A stretch of DNA of 20,882 nucleotides from a virus: the IMG/VR virus record IMGVR_UViG_3300017917_004832, positions 1 through 20,882 of that record, one strand, 5' to 3'. Of the stretch, positions 1 through 20,741 are shown in pieces. Numbering within the stretch: the stretch's first letter is position 1; each line of letters begins with the position of its first letter. The notes below the pieces were generated by a model, which was not told the origin of the DNA, made no database searches, and was given only the letters and a program-made list of their open reading frames with translations. Made by a program: the position numbers and the translations under genes.

Positions 1-1230
1 AAACAAAATCCAGATATTAAAAATACATACCTACTTTTACATACTCATTGGGGAGAGGGATGGAATATACATAAATTAGCCGCCGAATTAGGAGTAAATT
101 CACAAGAAATACTAACAACTTATATATGTAAAAACTGCGGAGAATATGAAGTAAAAAATTTTACTGGACAAGACTTAAATTGTAAATATTGTGGTGCAGA
201 AAAAAGTCAGACAACTACAAATGTTGGAATAGGAGTGACAGAGTCTCAACTAAATGAAGTATATAATTTAATGGATGCATACTGCCATCCATTTACAAGT
301 GGTGGACAAGAAATACCTATTCAAGAAGCAAAACTTACAGAATTAATAACTCTTGTTACAAATTATTCATGTGGAGAAGAAATGTGTGAGCCAGAAGCTA
401 ATTCATTAGCTTTAGAATGGTCAGAGTATAGAGAGCATGGCACAGAGTTTATTAAGGCTTCAACTTCTCCAGAATCAATAGCTAAACAGTTAAACATTGT
501 ATATAAAATGCCACAGCATAAAAGACTTGAAATGGGTAAAAAAGCTAGGGAGTGGACAATTAAAAATTTCGGTGTTAAAAATGTAGCTAAAATTTTAGAA
601 GATTTTATAGATGCACAACCACTAATCGAATGGCAAAAAATTAAAGAAAATCCAGAAAATAGAAAAGACCCATACTTTCAAATCCCTAATATTATTGATG
701 ATGCTGAATGGCTAACATTTATGTATCATAATATCTTAAAGATGAAAAATATAGATAGAAATGACTCTGGTCATCAATACTGGATGGGTGAATTAAACAA
801 AGGTGCAAAAAGACAAGATATTGAAAATTATTTTAGAAACGTAGCTTTACAAGAAAATAATAAATCTAAAGAGATTAAATTTGAAGATCTTCTTGATCCA
901 AACGATAAAGGAAGAGTTATATATGTAATGCCAGAGAGTGCAGGCGATATATTCTTAAGTACAGCTTTATTTAAATCTATAAAAAATAGATATCCAGAAT
1001 ATAGTTTATATGTAGCAACAAAACCTCAATACAAAGATATTCTAGAAGGTAATCCTTATGTTCACAAATGGATCGAATATAATCCAATAATGGATAATCT
1101 TATTTGGCTAGAAGGAAACAATCAACATAATGGTCACTTTGATATCGCTTATCTTCCGTATACATGCACTCAAAGAAATTTAAATTATATTCATAATGGA
1201 CTAGATAAACTAGATTTTAGCCTAAGTTAA
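1..1230 (+). CDS. Glycosyltransferase, GT4 + DUF4214 + GT9 N-terminal half (5' truncated)
   Basis: The reading frame is open from the left edge, so the start lies outside the window; an in-frame GTG at 235 is internal to the GT4 domain and is not the start. Visible residues 1-205 resemble the C-terminal half of a GT4 glycosyltransferase, with the HPFTSGGQEIPIQEAK segment at about 97-112; the second Glu of the E-x7-E motif is present but the first is Gly. A C-x2-C-x14-C-x2-C zinc-ribbon-like insert lies at residues 43-64. Residues about 236-285 match the DUF4214 pattern (FMYHNIL ... GHQYWMGELNKGAKRQDI ... F). Residues about 303-409 match the N-terminal domain of GT9 heptosyltransferases (ESAGDIFLSTALFKSIKNRY). 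The protein stops where a GT9 C-terminal domain should begin, and that domain is in the next ORF. It probably makes or modifies a surface glycan. GT assignments are fairly secure; substrate is unknown. Confidence 0.8.
   Translation, partial: KQNPDIKNTYLLLHTHWGEGWNIHKLAAELGVNSQEILTTYICKNCGEYEVKNFTGQDLNCKYCGAEKSQTTTNVGIGVTESQLNEVYNLMDAYCHPFTSGGQEIPIQEAKLTELITLVTNYSCGEEMCEPEANSLALEWSEYREHGTEFIKASTSPESIAKQLNIVYKMPQHKRLEMGKKAREWTIKNFGVKNVAKILEDFIDAQPLIEWQKIKENPENRKDPYFQIPNIIDDAEWLTFMYHNILKMKNIDRNDSGHQYWMGELNKGAKRQDIENYFRNVALQENNKSKEIKFEDLLDPNDKGRVIYVMPESAGDIFLSTALFKSIKNRYPEYSLYVATKPQYKDILEGNPYVHKWIEYNPIMDNLIWLEGNNQHNGHFDIAYLPYTCTQRNLNYIHNGLDKLDFSLS
127..192 (+). other. Zinc-ribbon-like insert in the GT4 domain
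   Basis: Two CxxC pairs 14 residues apart (codons at 127-129, 136-138, 181-183, 190-192) fall just before the GT4 acceptor/donor loop segment. Four cysteines in this spacing usually bind one structural Zn ion. The cysteines are read directly; zinc binding is inferred. Confidence 0.6.
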
Positions 1231-1247
1231 TTTATTATAATAAAATG
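1219..1247 (+). other. Probable frame-disruption point splitting the GT9 gene
   Basis: The upstream frame ends at TAA 1228-1230. The downstream frame (-1 relative) has TAG at 1218-1220 and is then open from 1221 through ATG 1245. A single -1 shift, or one missing base, between about 1221 and 1230 would join the GT9 halves into one continuous protein. No canonical X XXY YYZ slippery heptamer is visible. It could be a real gene fission, a pseudogene, or a sequencing/assembly indel. Confidence 0.55.
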
Positions 1248-2396
1248 AGATTATTAGATACTTACGCAACAAATACAGGATCAAGGATAGATAAACCTTT
1301 TATTTATACTAAATTTTTTCCACTTCCTTTAGGAAAATTTATTACATTTCAAGCTCAAACTCCATATGATTCTAGAAATTATTCATACTGGCAAGAAGTT
1401 ATAAATCTTATTCATCCTTATCTAAGTAAAAATAATATTCATATTGTTCAAGTCGGAACAAAAGACGAAAAAACATTTAATGGTGTCGTAAATTTATTAG
1501 GACAAACAACAATTAATCAATTGGCATATGTTATTGAAAATAATATTTTACATTTTGGTGCTGATAGTTTTTGCGTTCATTTAGCATCATACTTTGATAA
1601 ACCAATTGTATCTATCTATAGCATAAGCAATCCAAATGTTGCTGGACCTCATTTTGGTAATAAAAATAAACATATTCTTTTAAAAGGATATGAAAGAATT
1701 GGTAATAAAAAACCTTCATACTCTCAAGTAGAGAATCCTAAATCTATAGATGCAATAAAACCAGAAGAAATAGCCGAGGGAATATTAAATCTTCTTAATA
1801 TAGAATGTTCTAAGTTTCCAGAATCAATTCATTTTGGCACAGATTATAATGTAAGAAGTTTTGAAATTATACCAGATGAGATAATTGATCCAAACTCAAT
1901 ACCAGTAGAAAATCCTATTATAAGAATGGATTATTGTTTTAATGAAAAAGCTCTTGAACAAATAATATCAGTAAAAAAATCTATTATTTTTACAGATAAA
2001 CCAATTAAAAAAGATTTAATACAAAAATATAAGAAAAACATTAATCAAATAATATATATTATAGACGAATCTAATAATATTAATTTTGTTAAACTTTTAA
2101 AAAATAATTCAATTAATTATGTTTTATTATCATTTTTAGATGAAGAAGTTTTAAATAAATATAAAATAGACTATATGGATTATAATCTTATTGTTAATAG
2201 AAAGCATAAAACTAAAGTTGATACAAATATCAAAGAAGTAGAAAATCTATACTATAAGTCTTCTAGAACGCTATATTCTTCAAAGGGTCAATTTATATCA
2301 AGATATGATTGGATTCATAATATTGGAAATAAAGTCGTAGATGATCCAGATTTTTGGAAAGAAGTAGATAATTTCTACATTTTTAGATTGACTTAA
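1245..2396 (+). CDS. GT9-type glycosyltransferase C-terminal half plus uncharacterised C-terminal domain
   Basis: Residues 1-165 match the nucleotide-sugar-binding half of GT9 heptosyltransferases: FITFQAQTP, then YWQEVINLI, IVQVGTKDE, LLGQTTINQLAYVI, and the signature GADSFCVHLA (105-114) followed by DKPIVSIYS. A complete GT9 enzyme needs the N-terminal half, which is the end of the preceding ORF. Residues about 190-383 form a second, unrecognised domain, rich in I/N/K, with possible Rossmann-like strands (SIIFTDKP, QIIYIIDES, INYVLLSF). ATG 1245 has no SD upstream. Frame 3 is open from 1221, so the ATG may simply be an internal Met of a frameshifted gene. Function is probably glycan synthesis together with the upstream polypeptide. 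Confidence 0.7.
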   Translation: MRLLDTYATNTGSRIDKPFIYTKFFPLPLGKFITFQAQTPYDSRNYSYWQEVINLIHPYLSKNNIHIVQVGTKDEKTFNGVVNLLGQTTINQLAYVIENNILHFGADSFCVHLASYFDKPIVSIYSISNPNVAGPHFGNKNKHILLKGYERIGNKKPSYSQVENPKSIDAIKPEEIAEGILNLLNIECSKFPESIHFGTDYNVRSFEIIPDEIIDPNSIPVENPIIRMDYCFNEKALEQIISVKKSIIFTDKPIKKDLIQKYKKNINQIIYIIDESNNINFVKLLKNNSINYVLLSFLDEEVLNKYKIDYMDYNLIVNRKHKTKVDTNIKEVENLYYKSSRTLYSSKGQFISRYDWIHNIGNKVVDDPDFWKEVDNFYIFRLT

Positions 2397-11336: not shown

Positions 11337-12752
11337 ATGAAAGTAAATAACTTAAATTTAACAATAGAATGGGATACTATTAGAAATATTCCTAATTATG
11401 TTGTTGTATCCGAAGAGTTCCCTTCGTATAATGTATCTATCAAAGATGAGAGTAATTCTATAATTGAAAAATTTTTTAATATTAAAAATAATGAACCAGT
11501 TTTAGAAAGAAAAACTCAAAGAATTAAAGGAATACCTAAACTTAAATATTTTGTTAATTTTTCTAAAAATAAGATTAAAAGTAATTTTAAATATGACTTT
11601 GAAAAAAATTATAATAAATATAAAGAAATCAATAATAAAATTGGATTTTATAAAAAGTTATTATTTTCAATAGATTTTAATAATGATGGTAAAGGTGACT
11701 TTGATGTTGATGCTGAATACGCTACAATAGAAGATTTAAATAAAAATCTATTATTTAGTAAAATTTATAGAAGTAGTGATTATTTAAGCGTAAAGATGCT
11801 TATCAATAAAGAATATTTTAATATGAAGAATATTAATTCATTTTTAATAATTAGCGAAGTATCTAACAAAGTAGTTAAAAATAAAAAATTATTAAACCTA
11901 TTTACAGAAAAAATAAAAGAAAAATGGTTAGATGTTAATGACCAAACCGCACTATTAACAATACCATTTATAGAAAGTGATATAGTAGAAATATCTGAAA
12001 ATGTAAATATAAAAATTATTCCATTAAATTTTGTTCAAACAGAGATATATAAATTTTTAAAAGAAAAAGAAGCCGAAGCTGAAATAAATAGTTTATATGA
12101 AGAATATTTCTCTAATCAATGCTTTAATATAGGTAAAATATATAAACAAGCAGTAAATAATGAAATGATGATTTTTTATCAAAATTATATATATTTATTT
12201 AATAAAGATAGTATTGAAGCTAATTCTTTCCAGACCGATTTAAATATTAATGATATTAGTTTTAATAAATATTTTCCTTTATTAAATAAGGATCAAATGA
12301 ACAAAACAATATGTTTGTCTGACGATCTTAATACAGATGACGTTATAGATAACCCATATAATTTACAAAAAGATTACTTAGGATATTATTCAAAAAATAT
12401 GACAGATTATGAAGATATAGCTATAGATATTGATTATCTTCAAAACCAAGGATTAAAGACTGTTAAAATAATAGAAATCGAAGAATTAGGCAATATATGT
12501 AATATTTATATTGAGTTTATAACATCATTTTATAATAATGAAAAGTTCTATATAGAAACTAGTAATAATCTTAAATTTGATAAGAAATACAAGACTATAA
12601 TTGATGGACAAGAATATATTACATTTTTATTTAAATATTCTTATGATTTAAACTCTTTAAATGAGTATTTATCAGAAAATCTAAATATAAACAAGAATCA
12701 AATTATATCAGAAAAAGATCTTATCAATTTCTCGGCTAAATTAATACTTTAA
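11337..12752 (+). CDS. Hypothetical tail-tip-associated protein, 471 aa
   Basis: I do not recognise this family. It starts two bases after J, so it is almost certainly made with the tail-tip proteins and is probably structural or receptor-facing. It is extremely rich in K, N, I and D. A calcium-loop-like segment, DFNNDGKGDFD (from residue 113), matches the DxNxDGxGD pattern of EF-hand/dockerin loops. Residues 55-105 may form a coiled coil (KYKEINNKIGFYKKLLF). The middle (about 235-260) is helical with an EKEAEAEINSLYEEY run. Its stop overlaps the tape measure stop in TTAA. Codon use is even more AT-biased than that of J. Receptor binding or a J-companion role is inference from position. Confidence 0.6.
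   Translation: MKVNNLNLTIEWDTIRNIPNYVVVSEEFPSYNVSIKDESNSIIEKFFNIKNNEPVLERKTQRIKGIPKLKYFVNFSKNKIKSNFKYDFEKNYNKYKEINNKIGFYKKLLFSIDFNNDGKGDFDVDAEYATIEDLNKNLLFSKIYRSSDYLSVKMLINKEYFNMKNINSFLIISEVSNKVVKNKKLLNLFTEKIKEKWLDVNDQTALLTIPFIESDIVEISENVNIKIIPLNFVQTEIYKFLKEKEAEAEINSLYEEYFSNQCFNIGKIYKQAVNNEMMIFYQNYIYLFNKDSIEANSFQTDLNINDISFNKYFPLLNKDQMNKTICLSDDLNTDDVIDNPYNLQKDYLGYYSKNMTDYEDIAIDIDYLQNQGLKTVKIIEIEELGNICNIYIEFITSFYNNEKFYIETSNNLKFDKKYKTIIDGQEYITFLFKYSYDLNSLNEYLSENLNINKNQIISEKDLINFSAKLIL
11673..11699 (+). other. EF-hand/dockerin-like calcium loop
   Basis: Codons for D-x-N-x-D-G-x-G-D occur here once. The spacing of acidic side chains and the central Gly fit a Ca2+-binding loop; binding is inferred. 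Confidence 0.45.
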
Positions 12753-15700
12753 CCTATTTTTCTATAAACGCTACTACTTAATAAGCCACCTGGTCTTTGC
12801 TGCTCTGTTATTACTCTTATAACTTGATCTTTAACTCTTGCTGCTAATTCGCGTGTTCTTCTGCTTTCTTCTTCTCTTTGTTGAGCTGGAGTATTAGCAT
12901 TTTGCTCTGTTGTATCTGAAACAACTCTTTCTTGGTTTAAATTAACAACAACACTAACATTATTAGTTGGAGAATAATTAGAAGCTCCTTGTTCAGAAGT
13001 GGTCCCAACTGATCCTCCATCAGCAAATCTTTTTACTCTTCCAGAATTTAAATCATCAAAGAATTTTTTACCATATAAATTAACTGCTTCGCGACGCATA
13101 ACAAATTCTCCATCCATAAGTAAGGCTGGAATATTATCTTCATTTTTACCGCCATTTGCAAATCTTTTAATATGACCACCAGCTGCTTTTCTTAGAGATG
13201 GTTGTGCATATCTTAATTGAGTACCTGATGAAGCCCCTTCTCTTAAGGTTGGTTGCGCATATCTTAATTTAGGACCTGATGAAGCTGGACTAATTTGTCC
13301 CAGACCATAAGATGCCCCTGCAGCCCCAAGTCCAAAAAGGTAAGAAAACCATGCACCTTTAGATGCTGCTGATTTTTGGCTATTATATTGATTTTGAATC
13401 TCTTGGTTTAATCTTATGTTTTCTTCTAAAGCTTGTTTATTAGATTCATTTACTCCTTGAACATAATTTATATAATCAAACAAAGCTTGCTCTCTTTGTT
13501 GACGAATTTGATTTTGTGGATTATTGGGATCTAAAATAGCTTGTAGACTTAAACTTGGACTAACTAGATTTTCTCCAGCAGTAGGATAAAGTGGATCATT
13601 ATATCTATAGACATTTTCCCCTAAGAATTGAAGTTCTCCACCATCTGCGAATTTTGGTATCATTCCGCCGTATTTGAAAAATTCTCCCCTTTTTTCTTTG
13701 GGTCTTGAAATAGAAGGTGCTATTGAATATGAACTTTGTTGATTTGGTTGTACAAAATTTGGAGAAATTGATGTTATATTAAAACCAACTTGACTTAGAC
13801 CTCCTAAAAATGATTTCTTTACTTTCCCTTCATTCAACATTTGTAAATATTCTGGGCTATATTTTTTAACAGCGCTTTTTCTTATAACATATTCGCCTGC
13901 ACTTAACATCGCTGGAACGTCATCTTTTGTTCCAGATCCACCAGTTACAGTTCCACCGGAAGAGTAGCCTTTTATAATACCACCTTTTGATTTATTTAAT
14001 GAATTTAAAAATTTTCCTAAATTACCACCAACTGCTCCGCTTGTACTACCTAAAATACTTCCGAATAAAAGATTTGTACTAAATTCAAGAGCTAATTGTT
14101 GTATTTTATTAGATATGTTAAGAGCAAATTTTTGAAAAGCTTCACCAGCAGTAGCTGTACCTTGAGCAAAATCAAAAAATGCATTATTAAATTCAGACTT
14201 TATTGTTCTCGCAGTTTCTTTTGCGCCTAGTTGAACATCTCTAAATGCATCTTCTGTTCTATAATCAAATTCATCAAAAAATGAATCAGAAAAATCTGAT
14301 AATTGAGTATCTTGACCAAGTATGCGTGATTCTCTTGTTTCTTGTCTACCAGACCTAAAATCTTCTGCGAAAAGATTTCCAGCTTTTCTTTGATTGACTA
14401 ATATCTTCTCGCGTAAGCCCTCTAATCTTTTTCGATATTGATCTTCTGTTATTATTGCTTTTTCTATCTCTTTCTGATATTGATCTTCAGTAATCTCTTT
14501 ATTTTCTAACTGAACATTTAATTTATCTCTTCTTACAACTTCTTGAGCTAGCATTTCTCTAAGTTTTTCTGTTTCTTTATCGATTTCATCATAAACTTTA
14601 TTTCTTCTAGCTGGTGTTAAAATATCTTCACCAATTTGTTGAATAAGTCCAGCTTGCTCTTTACCTAAAACACCAAGAGGGTCTTGTAATTGAGCAAATA
14701 ATCTTTTCTTAACAAAATTGTCCGCTTCCCTTAAAGTTAAAGTATTATCTTTAAATGCTTGAATATATTCTTCTATGCTTGTTATAGCATTATTTTTAAG
14801 TATTTGCTCAATTCTTTTCGTACTTACACCTTGAGATCTTAAATCTTTTAAGATTCTCTGTAGAAGAGCATCTGCCGCTTCTTGATTTAAAGTCGTGCTA
14901 GATGCAGCGATTTTCCATTCAGCGAATTTTGCTCTAGTTTCTTCTGTATCTTGATAAAGTGGCTCAAGAACTGTTAATATTTGATTTAAATTTGTTCTTA
15001 TTTTCTCTTGTACTTTTACAGTAGGAACTCGTTCTATATTAGGAACTGCGACTCCTGCAAAACCCGCTCCTTCAACAAATGGAGATATACTTCCAGTACG
15101 AATTTTAGCCTCTTGTTGTAATTTTTGATTTTCTTTTAATAATTCTTCTAAATTTTTAGAAACAGTTTGTATTCTTTGTCTTCCTTCTTCTGTGGCGGCT
15201 AATTTTCTTATTACTGATTCTCCAGTTGATGTTTGAAGAGATAAGATGCTCTTTCCTATAATATCTGCATCGGTTTTAGTTTTTATCTCCTGACCTTTAA
15301 ATCCTTGTAATAAAACTTTAACACCTTCATTTGTAAGTTGAGCGCTACTTTCTGCTAATTTTTTATTAATAATCAAACCAATCGCATCATAATCTGCGCG
15401 AGCTAAAGATTCTAATACTTTATCTATAGTCTCTTTTCCTAATGGAGCTAAACCAGTAGCAATTTCATTTACTATTTTTTCTGAGTTAAAGGCTTTGGTT
15501 TGCTCGTCTGCTGTAGATGCTTGAACTTTTCTATATTCTTCAATAAGAGGAAGAACTCTTTGCAAAGAAGATTGAGATGCTTGAAATTCGTCTTGAAGAT
15601 ATTGTAAATTTTTCTGTAATTTTTCTAAGTCTGCTTTTTCTAAAGACTGAAAATATTGATAAGCTCCTATACCTCCACCAATAACTGTTCCAGCGGCTGC

Positions 15701-18700
15701 GCCATATAAACCTCCAAATCTACCTATTCCAGCGCCTACAAATGCTCCAGTAGATATAAAACTTAAAGCTGTACTTAAAGAACTAATTAGAGCTTGAGTT
15801 TTAGAGTCTTGATCTGAACTAAATTGAGATAAAGTTTGTAAAATTATTGGTAATCCAATTGATAACGCTAAAAATCCAGAACCAAATGTTTTAACGTTTC
15901 GACTTGTGTCTCGTAATTCTCCTTTAAAAGTCTTTAACTCTTTTGTAACTTCTTGGCGCGCTCTTTTTTCTGCGTTAAACTGAGCTTCTGAAGGAATAAT
16001 AATTCCTCCAGGACTAATCATTTCTGCATAATTTGGTACAAAACCTAAATTCATTCCAGCAGTTTTTGCATTTGAACCCATTCTAGCTATTCCTTGACCT
16101 AAACCAAGTGGCTCGTCTTGTGTATTATATACTCCTAATCCTAAAGGATTATATGCTGAAGTTAATCTTTTATCTCGACCTATTCTGATTCTAGATGGTG
16201 ATACTCCTGCTGATAATTCTCTATCAATAGATTCACTTAGAGCTGTAAAATTAGGAATAAAACCTTGTGAAGCTAATTTTTTAGTTATTGGTCTTGGTAA
16301 ACCTGGAAGTCCAGCATTATAAGCTTTTGATATTATCTCTCTAGCTGAATCTGGATTTACAATTCTTTTTGCATCTGCCTTAATTACGGGCGGGGCGAAT
16401 TTAAATCCATCATTAAATTCTTTAGATGGAGATGAAGCTTCTTCAAAATCGAAAGGCTTTTGAGCAAGATCCTGATTAAAAGCTTGTTCTAGTGCGCCTG
16501 TTCCTCTTTTTACCCCTAGATTTACGGCAGCCTCAAATATAGAACCTTCAGTTCCTTTTGGAAATAAATTAACATTTTTTCTTGTAGAGCTTTGTAATAA
16601 GCTAAGAAATTTTGGATCTGGATTAACTTTACCAAATATTTGACTTGCCAATGTATATAAAGGGCTAGCGAATAAAGTATTTATACTTCGCGAAAATTGT
16701 TCTTTATCTTTTATTTTAGAATTTGCTAAATCATTCAAAGTTCTGCCTTGTATACCAGTAAATGTTACTGATCTTGGATCATTTGGATATCCTAATTGTT
16801 TAAATTGAGTACTAACTTTACCAAAAGCGCCACTAAACCCAGCAACTCCAACAACACCAAGATTATTTGCATTGTATATTGCTTCGGGTAAATTTTGGGC
16901 TATTTTTGCATTTTTAACGCCTTGTAAATATTTAGCTTTATCTTGCTCAGTTTTTAATTGAGTCAAGGCTTTTTGTTGATTAATATTTCCTTTTATAGTT
17001 TCACTAATTAATGAAGTTACAGAAAAATTAGGTATAAATCCTTCTGCTGCGTATGGATTAAATCCATAAATTGAGCCAAATGTATCTTTATAATTTTTTC
17101 CAGCAGAGCTTTGACTAGGAGGCATAATTGCAGGTTGAGATAGTCCTGGAAATCTTTTTACTTTTTCTGCGCTATTATAAGTAATAGAACCTTCTCCAGG
17201 AATATTCATTCTTCTTATGTTCCCTGGACTATATCCACCAGCTAATGCTCCAAAAATTTCGCTCATTTCAAAATTAGGAATAAATCCACCACTTTTTGCT
17301 TTTAGAACTCCCCCTTTACTTGTTACTCCTCTTCCTAATAAACCTCCAGCAATTGTTGTTGAAAGTGAAGCGGCTCTTTCTCTTTCTAATGTTTGTTGAC
17401 GAATTATATTTAATATTTTATTTTCAACATCTAAAACACTAATTTGTTTATTATATATAGCTTGAACTAGATTTGGTTCTTGAGATAAAACTTGATTAAT
17501 TTTTGCTTGTATCTGAGCGCGTTGTTCTGCTTGCGTATTTACATTCAATAATGCTTTTAAAGAATCACCAGCAAATTTAGCTAAATTTAAAAATAATTTA
17601 CCAAAAACTGCGGTGATAAGTATAACTCCAGGACCACTTACGAATGTACCGATTCCTTCGAAAATACCTTTAGCTATTTTTGCTCCAGTTCCTTGCGAAT
17701 CTGTAGTTATTGATTCTAGACCTTTATTTAATAAATTAAGACCACCTTCAAAAGTAGGCTGTAGAGATATTCTGCCAAAATCTGCCCCAAGCTGAGTTAG
17801 ATTAACAAAAGTACGATTAATTAGAGCAGATAATGTCTCATTTAATTTTTCATTTCTAGATATAGCTTGATCTGTTGCATTGGCAGAAGTATCCAATGCT
17901 CTAGAATAAACTGAATATTCTTTTCCTAAATCTGCTAAAGCAGCTCGTAAAATATTGATTTGGAAAACGCCTCCAACAGTCTCTGCAACTTGCGCGCGTT
18001 GAGCATCTCCTAGTTGATTAAATGTAGTAGCTAAGTTACTTAGAATTTGAATAGCTGGAAGAGTATTTCCTTCTAAAGTTCTAACTTGTATTCCTAGTTG
18101 TTGTAATTGATCAAGAGTTTCTGTTCTTTGAATTCTTGTAAATATTGTCTTTAAAGAGTTACCAATAACTGCACCACCTCTAGCGGTAGTTTGTTGAACG
18201 CTTGTAACAATAGCTAATAATTGATCAAAATCAACACCAACATCTTGTGCAGAACTTCCTACTCTTTTAATAGCCTCCGCTAAGTCAGCCGAACTTACAG
18301 CAAATGCAGCGTCAACATTTGCTAATTTATTAATAATAGTTGTAGAATCTAGAGCTGCATTACTAAAGCTATTAATTGTAGCAGTTAGTGCTTCTACAGC
18401 GCTAACTGTATCTAAACCACTAAGACGAGTCAATATAAGTGCATCTCTTGTTCTTTTAAGAGTTTCTTCTAAACCTAAACCTTGACGCGAAAATTCTGTT
18501 GCAGCTTGAGCTACTGTATCAAAAGACTGGGCAGTATTTTTTGCAATAGAAAATAACTCGCCGCCAAATTTTTGTAATGTATTATTACTTACATTTAAAA
18601 TAACATTAATATCTGTCAATGACTTTTGAACATCTATTGTACTTTTTACAAGAGCCGTAAATGCTCTCTCTACTGTATAGATTAGACCTGCACTCGCACC

Positions 18701-18901
18701 GAATGCAATAACACGAGCATTAGAAGCATCTAATGATTTTTGAAATTCATTGGCTGCACCAGTAATTCTACCCAATGGTTGAGTAAAGGCTTTTTCATTT
18801 AATCCTTTAAATTTAAAATCACGCCCCAAGGCCCTTTGAATATCTCTTTCAAGTTGCCTTGTATCTGCACCTACTGAAATTGTAGCCGAGGTCCTTGCCA
18901 T
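12749..18901 (-). CDS. Tail tape measure protein, 2050 aa, multidomain
   Basis: ATG 18901 has AAGGA seven bases upstream. Residues about 85-330 match the TP901-type tape measure core (DVQKSLTDINVILN, AQAATEFSRQGL, LDTVSAVEALTATINSF, GGAVIGNSLKTIFTRIQR). A hydrophobic stretch follows (411-446). Four GFIPNF-type motifs lie at 539, 621, 880 and 953. A possible nuclease-like domain lies at 627-879 (Glu790, Asp818, Asp843-Ala-Lys845). Further hydrophobic segments lie at 1006-1027 and 1038-1084, then long helices and a coiled coil (about 1435-1510). The C-terminus has two VPAMLSAGEYVIR-type modules (1659-1696, 1919-1957), FADGG-type motifs and a tandem repeat. It sets tail length and passes into the host envelope with DNA. 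At about 0.15 nm per residue it would span roughly 300 nm if fully extended. Confidence 0.92.
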   Translation of the reverse strand: MARTSATISVGADTRQLERDIQRALGRDFKFKGLNEKAFTQPLGRITGAANEFQKSLDASNARVIAFGASAGLIYTVERAFTALVKSTIDVQKSLTDINVILNVSNNTLQKFGGELFSIAKNTAQSFDTVAQAATEFSRQGLGLEETLKRTRDALILTRLSGLDTVSAVEALTATINSFSNAALDSTTIINKLANVDAAFAVSSADLAEAIKRVGSSAQDVGVDFDQLLAIVTSVQQTTARGGAVIGNSLKTIFTRIQRTETLDQLQQLGIQVRTLEGNTLPAIQILSNLATTFNQLGDAQRAQVAETVGGVFQINILRAALADLGKEYSVYSRALDTSANATDQAISRNEKLNETLSALINRTFVNLTQLGADFGRISLQPTFEGGLNLLNKGLESITTDSQGTGAKIAKGIFEGIGTFVSGPGVILITAVFGKLFLNLAKFAGDSLKALLNVNTQAEQRAQIQAKINQVLSQEPNLVQAIYNKQISVLDVENKILNIIRQQTLERERAASLSTTIAGGLLGRGVTSKGGVLKAKSGGFIPNFEMSEIFGALAGGYSPGNIRRMNIPGEGSITYNSAEKVKRFPGLSQPAIMPPSQSSAGKNYKDTFGSIYGFNPYAAEGFIPNFSVTSLISETIKGNINQQKALTQLKTEQDKAKYLQGVKNAKIAQNLPEAIYNANNLGVVGVAGFSGAFGKVSTQFKQLGYPNDPRSVTFTGIQGRTLNDLANSKIKDKEQFSRSINTLFASPLYTLASQIFGKVNPDPKFLSLLQSSTRKNVNLFPKGTEGSIFEAAVNLGVKRGTGALEQAFNQDLAQKPFDFEEASSPSKEFNDGFKFAPPVIKADAKRIVNPDSAREIISKAYNAGLPGLPRPITKKLASQGFIPNFTALSESIDRELSAGVSPSRIRIGRDKRLTSAYNPLGLGVYNTQDEPLGLGQGIARMGSNAKTAGMNLGFVPNYAEMISPGGIIIPSEAQFNAEKRARQEVTKELKTFKGELRDTSRNVKTFGSGFLALSIGLPIILQTLSQFSSDQDSKTQALISSLSTALSFISTGAFVGAGIGRFGGLYGAAAGTVIGGGIGAYQYFQSLEKADLEKLQKNLQYLQDEFQASQSSLQRVLPLIEEYRKVQASTADEQTKAFNSEKIVNEIATGLAPLGKETIDKVLESLARADYDAIGLIINKKLAESSAQLTNEGVKVLLQGFKGQEIKTKTDADIIGKSILSLQTSTGESVIRKLAATEEGRQRIQTVSKNLEELLKENQKLQQEAKIRTGSISPFVEGAGFAGVAVPNIERVPTVKVQEKIRTNLNQILTVLEPLYQDTEETRAKFAEWKIAASSTTLNQEAADALLQRILKDLRSQGVSTKRIEQILKNNAITSIEEYIQAFKDNTLTLREADNFVKKRLFAQLQDPLGVLGKEQAGLIQQIGEDILTPARRNKVYDEIDKETEKLREMLAQEVVRRDKLNVQLENKEITEDQYQKEIEKAIITEDQYRKRLEGLREKILVNQRKAGNLFAEDFRSGRQETRESRILGQDTQLSDFSDSFFDEFDYRTEDAFRDVQLGAKETARTIKSEFNNAFFDFAQGTATAGEAFQKFALNISNKIQQLALEFSTNLLFGSILGSTSGAVGGNLGKFLNSLNKSKGGIIKGYSSGGTVTGGSGTKDDVPAMLSAGEYVIRKSAVKKYSPEYLQMLNEGKVKKSFLGGLSQVGFNITSISPNFVQPNQQSSYSIAPSISRPKEKRGEFFKYGGMIPKFADGGELQFLGENVYRYNDPLYPTAGENLVSPSLSLQAILDPNNPQNQIRQQREQALFDYINYVQGVNESNKQALEENIRLNQEIQNQYNSQKSAASKGAWFSYLFGLGAAGASYGLGQISPASSGPKLRYAQPTLREGASSGTQLRYAQPSLRKAAGGHIKRFANGGKNEDNIPALLMDGEFVMRREAVNLYGKKFFDDLNSGRVKRFADGGSVGTTSEQGASNYSPTNNVSVVVNLNQERVVSDTTEQNANTPAQQREEESRRTRELAARVKDQVIRVITEQQRPGGLLSSSVYRKIG
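13031..13147 (-). other. Second tape-measure C-terminal module (IPALLMDGEFVMRREAV)
   Basis: Residues 1919-1957 carry the Gly-rich lead and NIPALLMDGEFVMRREAVNL pattern common near the C-termini of siphophage tape measure proteins. It is the second copy; the first is at 13814-13927. Confidence 0.7.
13190..13285 (-). repeat. 51-bp tandem repeat, about 1.9 copies, inside the tape measure gene
   Basis: Units start at 13190 and 13241. Each encodes LRYAQP(T/S)LR plus a short linker, giving a 17-residue periodicity (residues 1879-1904). The copies keep GCATATCTTAATT and ACCTGATGAAGC and differ at scattered sites, so this is an older duplication. Confidence 0.8.
13814..13927 (-). other. First tape-measure C-terminal module (VPAMLSAGEYVIRKSAV)
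   Basis: Residues 1659-1696 carry KDDVPAMLSAGEYVIRKSAV followed by YSPEYLQMLNEGK, the family's usual C-terminal sequence. The duplicate occurs about 260 residues later. Confidence 0.7.
16028..16045 (-). repeat. GFIPNF-type motif, copy 4 (GFVPNY)
   Basis: Residues 953-958 of the tape measure read GFVPNY, the most diverged of four copies. It follows AGMNL and precedes a charged helix. Confidence 0.6.
16247..16264 (-). repeat. GFIPNF motif, copy 3
   Basis: Residues 880-885 are GFIPNF, followed by TALSESIDRELSAGVSPSRI and then IRIG, a downstream module that resembles the one after copy 1 (GGYSPGNIRR ... TYN). Confidence 0.75.
16265..17023 (-). other. Embedded domain between GFIPNF motifs, possible PD-(D/E)XK nuclease-like fold
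   Basis: Residues 627-879 are flanked by GFIPNF copies two and three. GSIFEAAVNLGVKRG (786-800), KPFDFEEAS (815-823) and VIKADAKRIV (839-848) place Glu790, Asp818 and Asp843-x-Lys845 in the order and spacing of the E...D...(D/E)xK active site. The second acidic residue of the xK motif is Asp, which the family tolerates. The motif is short and degenerate, so this is a hypothesis. Confidence 0.35.
17024..17041 (-). repeat. GFIPNF motif, copy 2
   Basis: Residues 621-626 are GFIPNF, preceded by NPYAAE, and open the 253-residue embedded domain. Confidence 0.75.
17270..17287 (-). repeat. GFIPNF motif, copy 1
   Basis: Residues 539-544 are GFIPNF after a GGVLKAKSG linker, followed by a Gly-rich module with SPGNIRR. 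Confidence 0.75.
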
Positions 18902-18959: not shown

Positions 18960-19976
18960 TTATTTAATACCATGTAGTTTCATTAAATCTTGCATGCTTA
19001 AAGTACCACCTTTTTTCAATGCTTCTCCATGCAAACTTACACCATTTTCATCTGCACCAATTTTAGCAAGATCTTCTTTTTTAGCTCCAACTATAGAAGT
19101 TCCAATTGCACCTTCGCTTTTCTTATTATCTTTTACGTCACTCTTACTTAATACTTCTTCAGCATTTTTACTACTTTCAAGCCAATCAATAAGTTTTTCT
19201 GGATCTTCGTATAGTTCATCAGCTGGTTTGTGCTTAGCTTCCGAAAGCATATTTCTAAAATACCTCGCATAGCTAAAAACTTCAATTTGATAAAAAGTAA
19301 GATATATTACAGGTTTTCCGTAAAGATAATATGGACTATCTTCACACATATTATAAAGACTAAGATAAAAAGATGACAATGCTATCTTTTTTAAATTTTT
19401 TTCAGAGAAGTCTTTATTTACATTATTATATATCTCTATAATCTCTGATACATCTTTATTTTCTAATTCATCAAATTGATCTTCTGAAAAGAATCTTTCG
19501 TTTAAATTTTTATCTTTAAATAATGAATTATACATATAATATTCATTGACTTTTTTATTAGCATAATCTTCAACAGTAAATCCCAATAATCCCTTTCTTT
19601 CGCTTATCAATTCTATCAGTCTTAAGGTTTCTTCATTAATTTGTTGATTAATTGAAGTTATTTCTTCATTTCTAAATAGTTTTGATTTTGTTGTCTTAAG
19701 GTTAGAAATATAAGATTTTATCTTTTTTATTTCTTCATTTTTTTCCTGAGACCAAAGTTTTTCAGCTATTAAGTACTTCTCTTTTTCCTCTTCTGTTGGC
19801 AAACCATTACTCTTAGCCTTTACTATGAAATCTTGTCTTTTTGAATCTATATCACCAGAATCAAAGCTAGTATTATGTTTAAAATAGACTTTATTATTTT
19901 TATAGTATGTTTCTGTATAGCCCTTGAGTATATCAACAAATAGTAACCTTATCTTATTTTTATCTATGGTTTCCAA
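18960..19976 (-). CDS. Pre-tape-measure protein, possible second tail assembly chaperone component (338 aa)
   Basis: No family is recognised with certainty. The protein is acidic/basic and mostly helical, with EEEKEKYLIAEKLWSQEKNE, SLYNMCEDSPYYLYGKP and YLTFYQIEVFSYARYF segments, a DELYEDPEKLIDWLES helix, and a Gly/Lys-rich tail ending SMQDLMKLHGIK. Its place between the chaperone-like gene and the tape measure is where the T part of lambda G-T sits. The start is TTG 19976, directly after in-frame TAA-TGA of the previous gene. GGAG (19986-19989) is nine bases upstream of TTG and five from an out-of-frame ATG (19980) that opens only a six-codon ORF. The start could be further in. The role is inferred from position. 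Confidence 0.55.
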   Translation of the reverse strand: METIDKNKIRLLFVDILKGYTETYYKNNKVYFKHNTSFDSGDIDSKRQDFIVKAKSNGLPTEEEKEKYLIAEKLWSQEKNEEIKKIKSYISNLKTTKSKLFRNEEITSINQQINEETLRLIELISERKGLLGFTVEDYANKKVNEYYMYNSLFKDKNLNERFFSEDQFDELENKDVSEIIEIYNNVNKDFSEKNLKKIALSSFYLSLYNMCEDSPYYLYGKPVIYLTFYQIEVFSYARYFRNMLSEAKHKPADELYEDPEKLIDWLESSKNAEEVLSKSDVKDNKKSEGAIGTSIVGAKKEDLAKIGADENGVSLHGEALKKGGTLSMQDLMKLHGIK

Positions 19977-19979
19977 TCA

Positions 19980-20741
19980 TTATTTCTCCGCTTTTTTACC
20001 ATCTTTATTTATTGCGTCAAGAAGTTTAGAAAACTCTTCTTGAGTAGCGGCTCTACCAATATACCAGAAGCTAATCAAATATAATAATTTTTGAAGAGCA
20101 ATTTTCTCAAGGCCTAATTCTGATTCTTCAATCTCATCATATTTCTTTAATTTTTCATCATAAACGCCATCTCCAAAAAGTTGTTTTAACTTTTTATCTT
20201 CACCTTCGATAAGACTGAGCTGAAGAACCCACCACATAATTGTTTTATTTCTAGCCCTATTCTCTGCCGTTTGCTCGAAAAGATTAGCTTGAGCCATTTC
20301 ATATTTTTGAATCATTTCTCTTGTTTCTGTCATCTTTTCGATAATTTTAGCTAGTTCACTTTTTTCGTCATCTGTTCTTAATGATTCTTGTTTTAAGGAT
20401 AATTTTTGAAAATCAACTTGTAAGTTCAAAAAATCATTATAAAGATCATTATATTCTTTTTGTTCTTCTTCACTTAAAACTCCACCATCATTATTAAATC
20501 TTTTAGCTAATAGAGCGCGAGTTAAAAGACCAGCTTTAATACCTTCAGATAGTCTAACTCCATAAAAAAGTTCAGCCTCATCAAAAAGACTTCTTGTTGG
20601 TTTTTTGATACCAAGCTTAACTGGTACTGTAGTTTTAACTTTAGAAGTTACTTTAACTTCTTCGCCTTTTTCATTAGTAGAAACCTCAGTTTTCTCTACT
20701 TCTTTTTCATGATAAATATCAAATTCAAACATTGTTTTCAT
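19980..20741 (-). CDS. Putative tail assembly chaperone (lambda G-like position), 253 aa
   Basis: ATG 20741 has GGAG (20749-20752) seven bases upstream; the next Met, at residue 4, is too far from it. The N-terminus (about 1-50) is beta-like and highly charged (KEVEKTEVSTNEKGEEVKV). Then comes KLGIKKPTRSLFDEAELFYGV, AGLLTRALLAKRFNNDGG and a long helical, Glu/Lys-rich region to about 165. The C-terminal half has MWWVLQLSLIE and LQKLLYLISFWYIGRAATQEEF. Small soluble proteins in this place coat the tape measure and recruit tube subunits. It is in the same reading frame as the 338-aa gene, separated by TAA TGA. The assignment rests on position and character, not on a clear motif. Confidence 0.5.
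   Translation of the reverse strand: MKTMFEFDIYHEKEVEKTEVSTNEKGEEVKVTSKVKTTVPVKLGIKKPTRSLFDEAELFYGVRLSEGIKAGLLTRALLAKRFNNDGGVLSEEEQKEYNDLYNDFLNLQVDFQKLSLKQESLRTDDEKSELAKIIEKMTETREMIQKYEMAQANLFEQTAENRARNKTIMWWVLQLSLIEGEDKKLKQLFGDGVYDEKLKKYDEIEESELGLEKIALQKLLYLISFWYIGRAATQEEFSKLLDAINKDGKKAEK
19986..19989 (-). promoter_or_regulatory. SD motif GGAG before the 338-aa gene
   Basis: It sits five bases from ATG 19980 and nine from TTG 19976. It therefore supports the TTG start but also an alternative six-codon ORF. Confidence 0.55.

Follow-up and report, generated by a model that had tools for sequence, protein, structure and literature searches.

A candidate nuclease cassette, exchanged between phages, inside the tape measure protein of an uncultured siphophage lineage

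The window analyzed here is a 20,882-nucleotide stretch of an IMG/VR virus record, and it encodes a tape measure protein (TMP). TMPs are usually viewed as rulers and as conduits for DNA entry. In this TMP, residues 627 to 879 probably represent a metal-dependent, nuclease-like cargo that is likely ejected together with the genome and would then cleave DNA inside the host; its activity and its target are inferred.

Results

The tape measure protein and its surroundings

The 2050-aa ORF matched the Pfam family PhageMin_Tail (1.2e-28, residues 121 to 311) and several PHROG families annotated as tail length tape measure protein (best 7.2e-51). Its TMP core domain lies within a tail gene cluster; the neighbors, on the + strand, correspond to the lambda-like minor tail proteins M and L (Phage_min_tail, Phage_tail_L) and to a JAB plus NlpC/P60 protein. 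The features of the protein are collected in Table 1.

Table 1. Features of the tape measure protein, in window coordinates
Feature	TMP residues	Window position	Strand	Basis
TMP gene		12749..18901	(-)	ORF, 2050 aa; Pfam and PHROG matches
PhageMin_Tail domain, conserved carrier part	121-311	17969..18541	(-)	Pfam
Hydrophobic segment	416-444	17570..17656	(-)	Kyte-Doolittle 19-mer > 1.6
GFIPNF copy 1	539-544	17270..17287	(-)	Motif in TMP translation
GFIPNF copy 2, left cassette edge	621-626	17024..17041	(-)	Motif and identity drop
Exchangeable nuclease-like cassette	627-879	16265..17023	(-)	Identity drop; core profile
E790 codon, predicted helix 782-797 (EGSIFEAAV)	790	16532..16534	(-)	E in 135/136; AF2 helix
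D818 codon (QKPFDFEE)	818	16448..16450	(-)	D in 135/136
D843-A844-K845 codons, (D/E)xK motif, predicted strand	843-845	16367..16375	(-)	Alignment and AF2 strand
K859 codon, helix after (D/E)xK strand	859	16325..16327	(-)	K in 132/136
GFIPNF copy 3, right cassette edge	880-885	16247..16264	(-)	Motif and identity recovery
GFVPNY copy 4	953-958	16028..16045	(-)	Motif in TMP translation
Hydrophobic segment	1003-1024	15830..15895	(-)	Kyte-Doolittle 19-mer > 1.6

Just upstream of the TMP gene (window 18960-20741, - strand), two ORFs of 253 and 338 aa share one frame and are separated only by TAA-TGA followed by TTG, as if the second ORF were reinitiated. The double stop upstream of the TMP also occurs in the relatives L305, L289, L291, L297, L298, and L295. 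At the other end, window 1-2396 (+ strand) holds two glycosyltransferase-like genes, one of group 1 and one heptosyltransferase-like of family 9, adjoining the tail module.

Edges of the cassette and evidence for its exchange

Comparison of the window TMP with the near-identical TMPs L289-L292 disclosed an identity of 77-92% in residues 539-626, which falls to 12-30% within residues 627-879, with the catalytic residues kept, and returns to 68-81% in residues 880-960. For L289, L290, and L291, the 77-92% identity applies to residues 1-626, and the value in residues 880-960 is 68-72%. Judged from these alignments, residues 627-879 form a self-contained module that begins and ends abruptly at GFIPNF copies. 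The N-terminal carrier is 45-87% identical across diverged members; overall, carriers are 45-89% identical, and in many of the same pairs the cassette is 17-35% identical. Of the pairs with N-termini more than 85% identical, 20 of 39 have cassettes less than 35% identical, while 28 pairs with N-termini only 68-75% identical have cassettes more than 50% identical. The identities of N-terminus and cassette are thus not tree-like, which implies exchange of the cassette between phages.

Residues 539-626 and 880-960, which bear the GFIPNF copies, are conserved small domains themselves (e.g., 'GLGVYNTQDEPLGLGQG'), and they could act as homology arms for swapping of the cassette. In L126, a tandem repeat of 'NAVRGYG.EIPNF' (163-277 aa) lies beside a GYIPNF motif, and this repeat suggests that the GFxPNF-type motif is able to amplify.

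Conservation of the catalytic-type residues

The original prediction had read E790, D818, D843, and K845 as following the order of the PD-(D/E)XK active site between GFIPNF copies 2 and 3. Both the order and the placement were found in the TMP translation. Shuffles predict 8.5 instances of a loose E-D-(D/E)xK pattern in the TMP, which has 6, and 0.69 in residues 627-879, which have 2; the bare pattern is therefore at chance level, so that the motif by itself is no evidence and what had been put forward for it was weak when taken alone.

Conservation in homologues, by contrast, is very strong, with all four residues either invariant or D/E-exchanged, the D/E exchange being confined to the (D/E)xK position. 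An alignment of 136 sequences, in which some contigs are present more than once so that counts refer to sequences and not to independent events, retained E790 in 135, D818 in 135, K845 in 136, K859 in 132, and G786 in 136, with D (116) or E (20) at position 843. The 65 unique sequences all carry E790, D818, K845, K859, and G786 (each 65/65), and position 843 is D in 61 and E in 4. In an alignment of 81 sequences, whose pairwise identity has a median of about 20% and a minimum of about 10%, the corresponding counts are 80 (E790), 79 (D818), 81 (K845), 78 (K859), and 81 (G786), with 72 D and 9 E at position 843.

The cassette has 54 charged residues, and the only five near-invariant charged columns are E790, D818, position 843, K845, and K859. 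Residues E785, E820, and R846, invariant among close relatives, are lost in diverged ones, leaving the catalytic-type set alone. Synonymous codons vary at the conserved positions, indicating that the constraint acts on the amino acid. An E-D-(D/E)xK set with D/E exchange is a typical nuclease signature, and its conservation across the 136 sequences makes a PD-(D/E)XK-like active site in residues 627-879 a well-supported assignment at the level of sequence.

Predicted fold and family searches

AF2 modeling with 18 sequences gave a pLDDT of 77.5, and with 78 sequences (residues 660-882) a pLDDT of 87.3 and a pTM of 0.81. The model with 78 sequences starts with five strands, after which come one long helix, a second helix, and the E790 helix (782-797). 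D818 lies in an isolated beta-bridge, and the D843/K845 strand (841-848) and the K859 helix (850-863) follow, with no further strand. The contiguous alpha-beta-beta-beta-alpha-beta run expected of a PD-(D/E)XK core is absent from this model, and for this reason we do not file the cassette in that superfamily. The proposal of a nuclease-like domain within the TMP is supported as regards the conserved active-site set and the discrete module, and not as regards the fold; membership in the PD-(D/E)XK fold is unproven. A permuted core built with the N-terminal strands may be present, and in L113-L117 the last helix is followed by a 'GPGxxF(I/M)xHTP'-like stretch that could be the missing strand.

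Residues 627-879 matched no Pfam or PHROG family, and the cassette could be matched to no known nuclease family or structure with Pfam, PHROGs, PADLOC, PDB sequence, Foldseek, or VIA-align. Specifically, Foldseek with two AF2 models against the PDB gave no match with E below 0.1, the better model had no meaningful match in BFVD, and VIA-align of the AF2 model reached Z of at most 2.4 and no relative. Comparisons by hhalign with Mrr_cat, UPF0102, and YqaJ were not significant, and since these known families also miss one another under the same settings, the comparison is blind; one value of the column-shuffle null was an outlier, and that null was set aside.

Several candidate matches were rejected. 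Lectin matches (4oei/3v6n, E 1e-5) covered only ~36 residues around 'G-x-x-FE' in repeat copies, without the DxK; a Cas4 match of one member (E 0.006) fell outside the catalytic motif; a Phage_int_SAM_6 match (0.014) did not reach the cut-off and lay in the N-terminal part; and a tblastn match to a cyanophage gp22 scaffold (E 0.1) was insignificant and concerned a different protein.

Distribution of the cassette

Relatives were gathered by iterated IMG/VR scans, which yielded 20, then 36, then many more. All cassette relatives from these scans lie within TMP ORFs, where the second GFxPNF motif precedes most of them. The lineage comprises at least 520 TMP loci in IMG/VR, counted as relatives confirmed by the N-terminus. 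The cassette core profile was detected in 68 of 72 full-length TMPs, drawn from the best 80 of these at least 520 relatives, and the best reversed decoy reached an i-E of 0.09. The active-site-like residues conserved in this otherwise fast-changing insert suggest that an enzyme is delivered inside the tail 'ruler' by hundreds of uncultured phages.

Among 50,697 phage records, the cassette had no match (best tblastn E 0.1). With the TMP N-terminus, the matches listed were all of about 31% identity or lower and came mainly from phages of Bacillus and Lactococcus; the lineage has no close relative among cultured phages. GTDB genomes gave a single match, on a Flavobacteriales MAG contig.

Other modules in the slots

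Four of the 72 full-length TMPs lack the cassette core (L353, L339, L357, and L368). In the slot of L353 the cassette is replaced by an SNase domain, which passes the Pfam cut-off (PF00565, 1.4e-5; thermonuclease 3d8g, 5.5e-4), and L339 and L357 show other D...ExK stretches by eye. Elsewhere, a GFxPNF-bounded GNAT module (PF00583, 7.6e-7) in L352 and L360 and a PcfJ module in L339 exceed the Pfam cut-off, while HATPase (L346) and P-loop (L086, 1545-1858 aa) matches stay below it. Several unrelated enzymatic domains, modular between relatives, are thus found across the TMPs of the lineage, as is characteristic of polyvalent proteins; the window TMP itself has one enzyme-like cassette.

Up to nine GFxPNF motifs bound modules in the TMPs of the lineage. 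By eye, L164 (1124-1325 aa) has a kinase-like module, and stretches in L017 (913-1259 aa, 'ANELTHLIQ') and L052 (2398-2828 aa, 'ANESIHWIQ') resemble zinc-peptidase helices; these two modules have no Pfam match. A putative protease of this type could release cassettes.

Discussion

The proposed mechanism starts from a two-metal-type nuclease active site in residues 627-879, E...D...(D/E)xK, with a conserved lysine in the next helix. The TMP would be spooled inside the tail tube and pushed out ahead of or together with the phage DNA, whereupon the cassette, positioned between the two hydrophobic segments (416-444 and 1003-1024), would refold beyond the tube and cut DNA inside the infected cell. 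The DNA attacked might belong to the host chromosome, to a rival element resident in the cell, or to a superinfecting phage. Delivery into the host is deduced from TMP biology: the lambda TMP leaves the tail during entry and reaches the inner membrane at injection (PMC13190303). Rapid divergence and exchange around a fixed active site suggest conflict with factors of the host or of rivals, such as an arms race involving inhibitors, immunity, or target specificity. We also count in favor of a nuclease cargo the slot that carries an SNase instead of the cassette and the other slots with enzymes such as GNAT.

The main rival is a nuclease acting on the phage's own DNA, trimming or releasing an end at the head-tail joint or processing DNA during entry, and it owes this rank to the near-universality of the module (68/72 of the TMPs examined), as would be expected if the phage's own cycle depended on it. 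T4 gp4, also a nuclease associated with the virion, has its role in packaging (PMC7824862). The near-universality of the module would be compatible, too, with a function in tail assembly or entry. Sharp exchange and fast divergence would nevertheless be unusual for such a housekeeping step. Furthermore, the tail tube is narrow and a domain inside it is unlikely to be folded. We consider action on the phage's own DNA unlikely.

An equally low probability is given to an enzyme with a similar charged site on a fold of its own and a substrate other than DNA, for example, RNA, tRNA, nucleotides, or protein. That neither fold nor profile searches linked the cassette to DNA nucleases would agree with this alternative, as would the non-nuclease enzymes such as GNAT in other slots of the lineage; the nuclease signature with its D/E exchange and the replacement of the module by SNase in the slot of at least one phage speak against it.

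Phage TMP length tracks tail length and TMPs tolerate insertions, and the segment could accordingly be structural, only lengthening the ruler or binding DNA, with residues conserved for folding. This appears quite improbable: among charged residues, near-invariance is limited to the catalytic-type set, hydrophobic and spacer positions have diverged to about 10-20% identity, and folding would not favor D/E exchange at one site together with a strict K two residues on. A chance motif in a non-homologous stretch has a negligible probability since, although chance alone should produce the bare pattern at this length, this reading is refuted by the conservation in 136 relatives, the detection in 68/72 TMPs, and the negative reversed decoys.

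Returning to the reading of the cassette as an injected nuclease, we tentatively extend it to the lineage as a whole, with somewhat less confidence than doubt. In this uncultured siphophage lineage the TMP may serve as a delivery rack whose GFxPNF slots hold exchangeable, fast-evolving enzymes, the first almost always a new E-D-(D/E)xK nuclease, injected with the genome against host or rival DNA. If this is true, the tail ruler itself would be a weapon or take-over factor in a lineage of at least 520 TMP loci.

With the PD-(D/E)XK superfamily the cassette shares the order and spacing of a helix E, a D, a strand (D/E)xK, and then a helix in which a polar residue is conserved; with Mrr-type enzymes it shares, on visual comparison, the F-E start of the helix. 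It differs from the superfamily by having five additional strands at the N-terminus, and then a long helix, before the motif, by the absence of a detectable profile or fold match, and by a model that lacks the contiguous core order. An enzymatic motif inside a phage TMP has a precedent in the peptidoglycan hydrolase motif of the mycobacteriophage TM4 TMP, whose substrate during entry is the cell wall and not nucleic acid (PMC1796659). The 'polyvalent proteins' of phages and plasmids are likewise large injected proteins stringing together unrelated enzymes (GNATs, kinases, nucleases) (PMC5512222); the text of that survey does not contain the word 'tape' (PMC5512222), whereas the carrier here is a TMP and the cassettes are GFxPNF-bounded. 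Sle1-type TMP-related effectors combine a tape-measure-like carrier with diverse exchangeable (reconfigurable) functional domains (PMC13277306), in their case C-terminal and in actinobacterial injection systems, with no nuclease reported there (PMC13277306). A further parallel is Tme, a TMP-related effector of the Streptomyces davawensis contractile injection system with an active EndA-type DNase domain (PMC11126660). Tme also places a nuclease domain on a tape-measure-like carrier and is delivered by a tail-like machine (PMC11126660). Its domain is EndA-type (DRGH / H-N-N), C-terminal, and part of a bacterial injection system, in contrast to the internal E-D-(D/E)xK cassette of the phage TMPs described here. 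If the proposed function is true, the cassettes would connect the tails of phages with the TMP-derived effectors that bacterial injection systems carry, and would provide a testable family.
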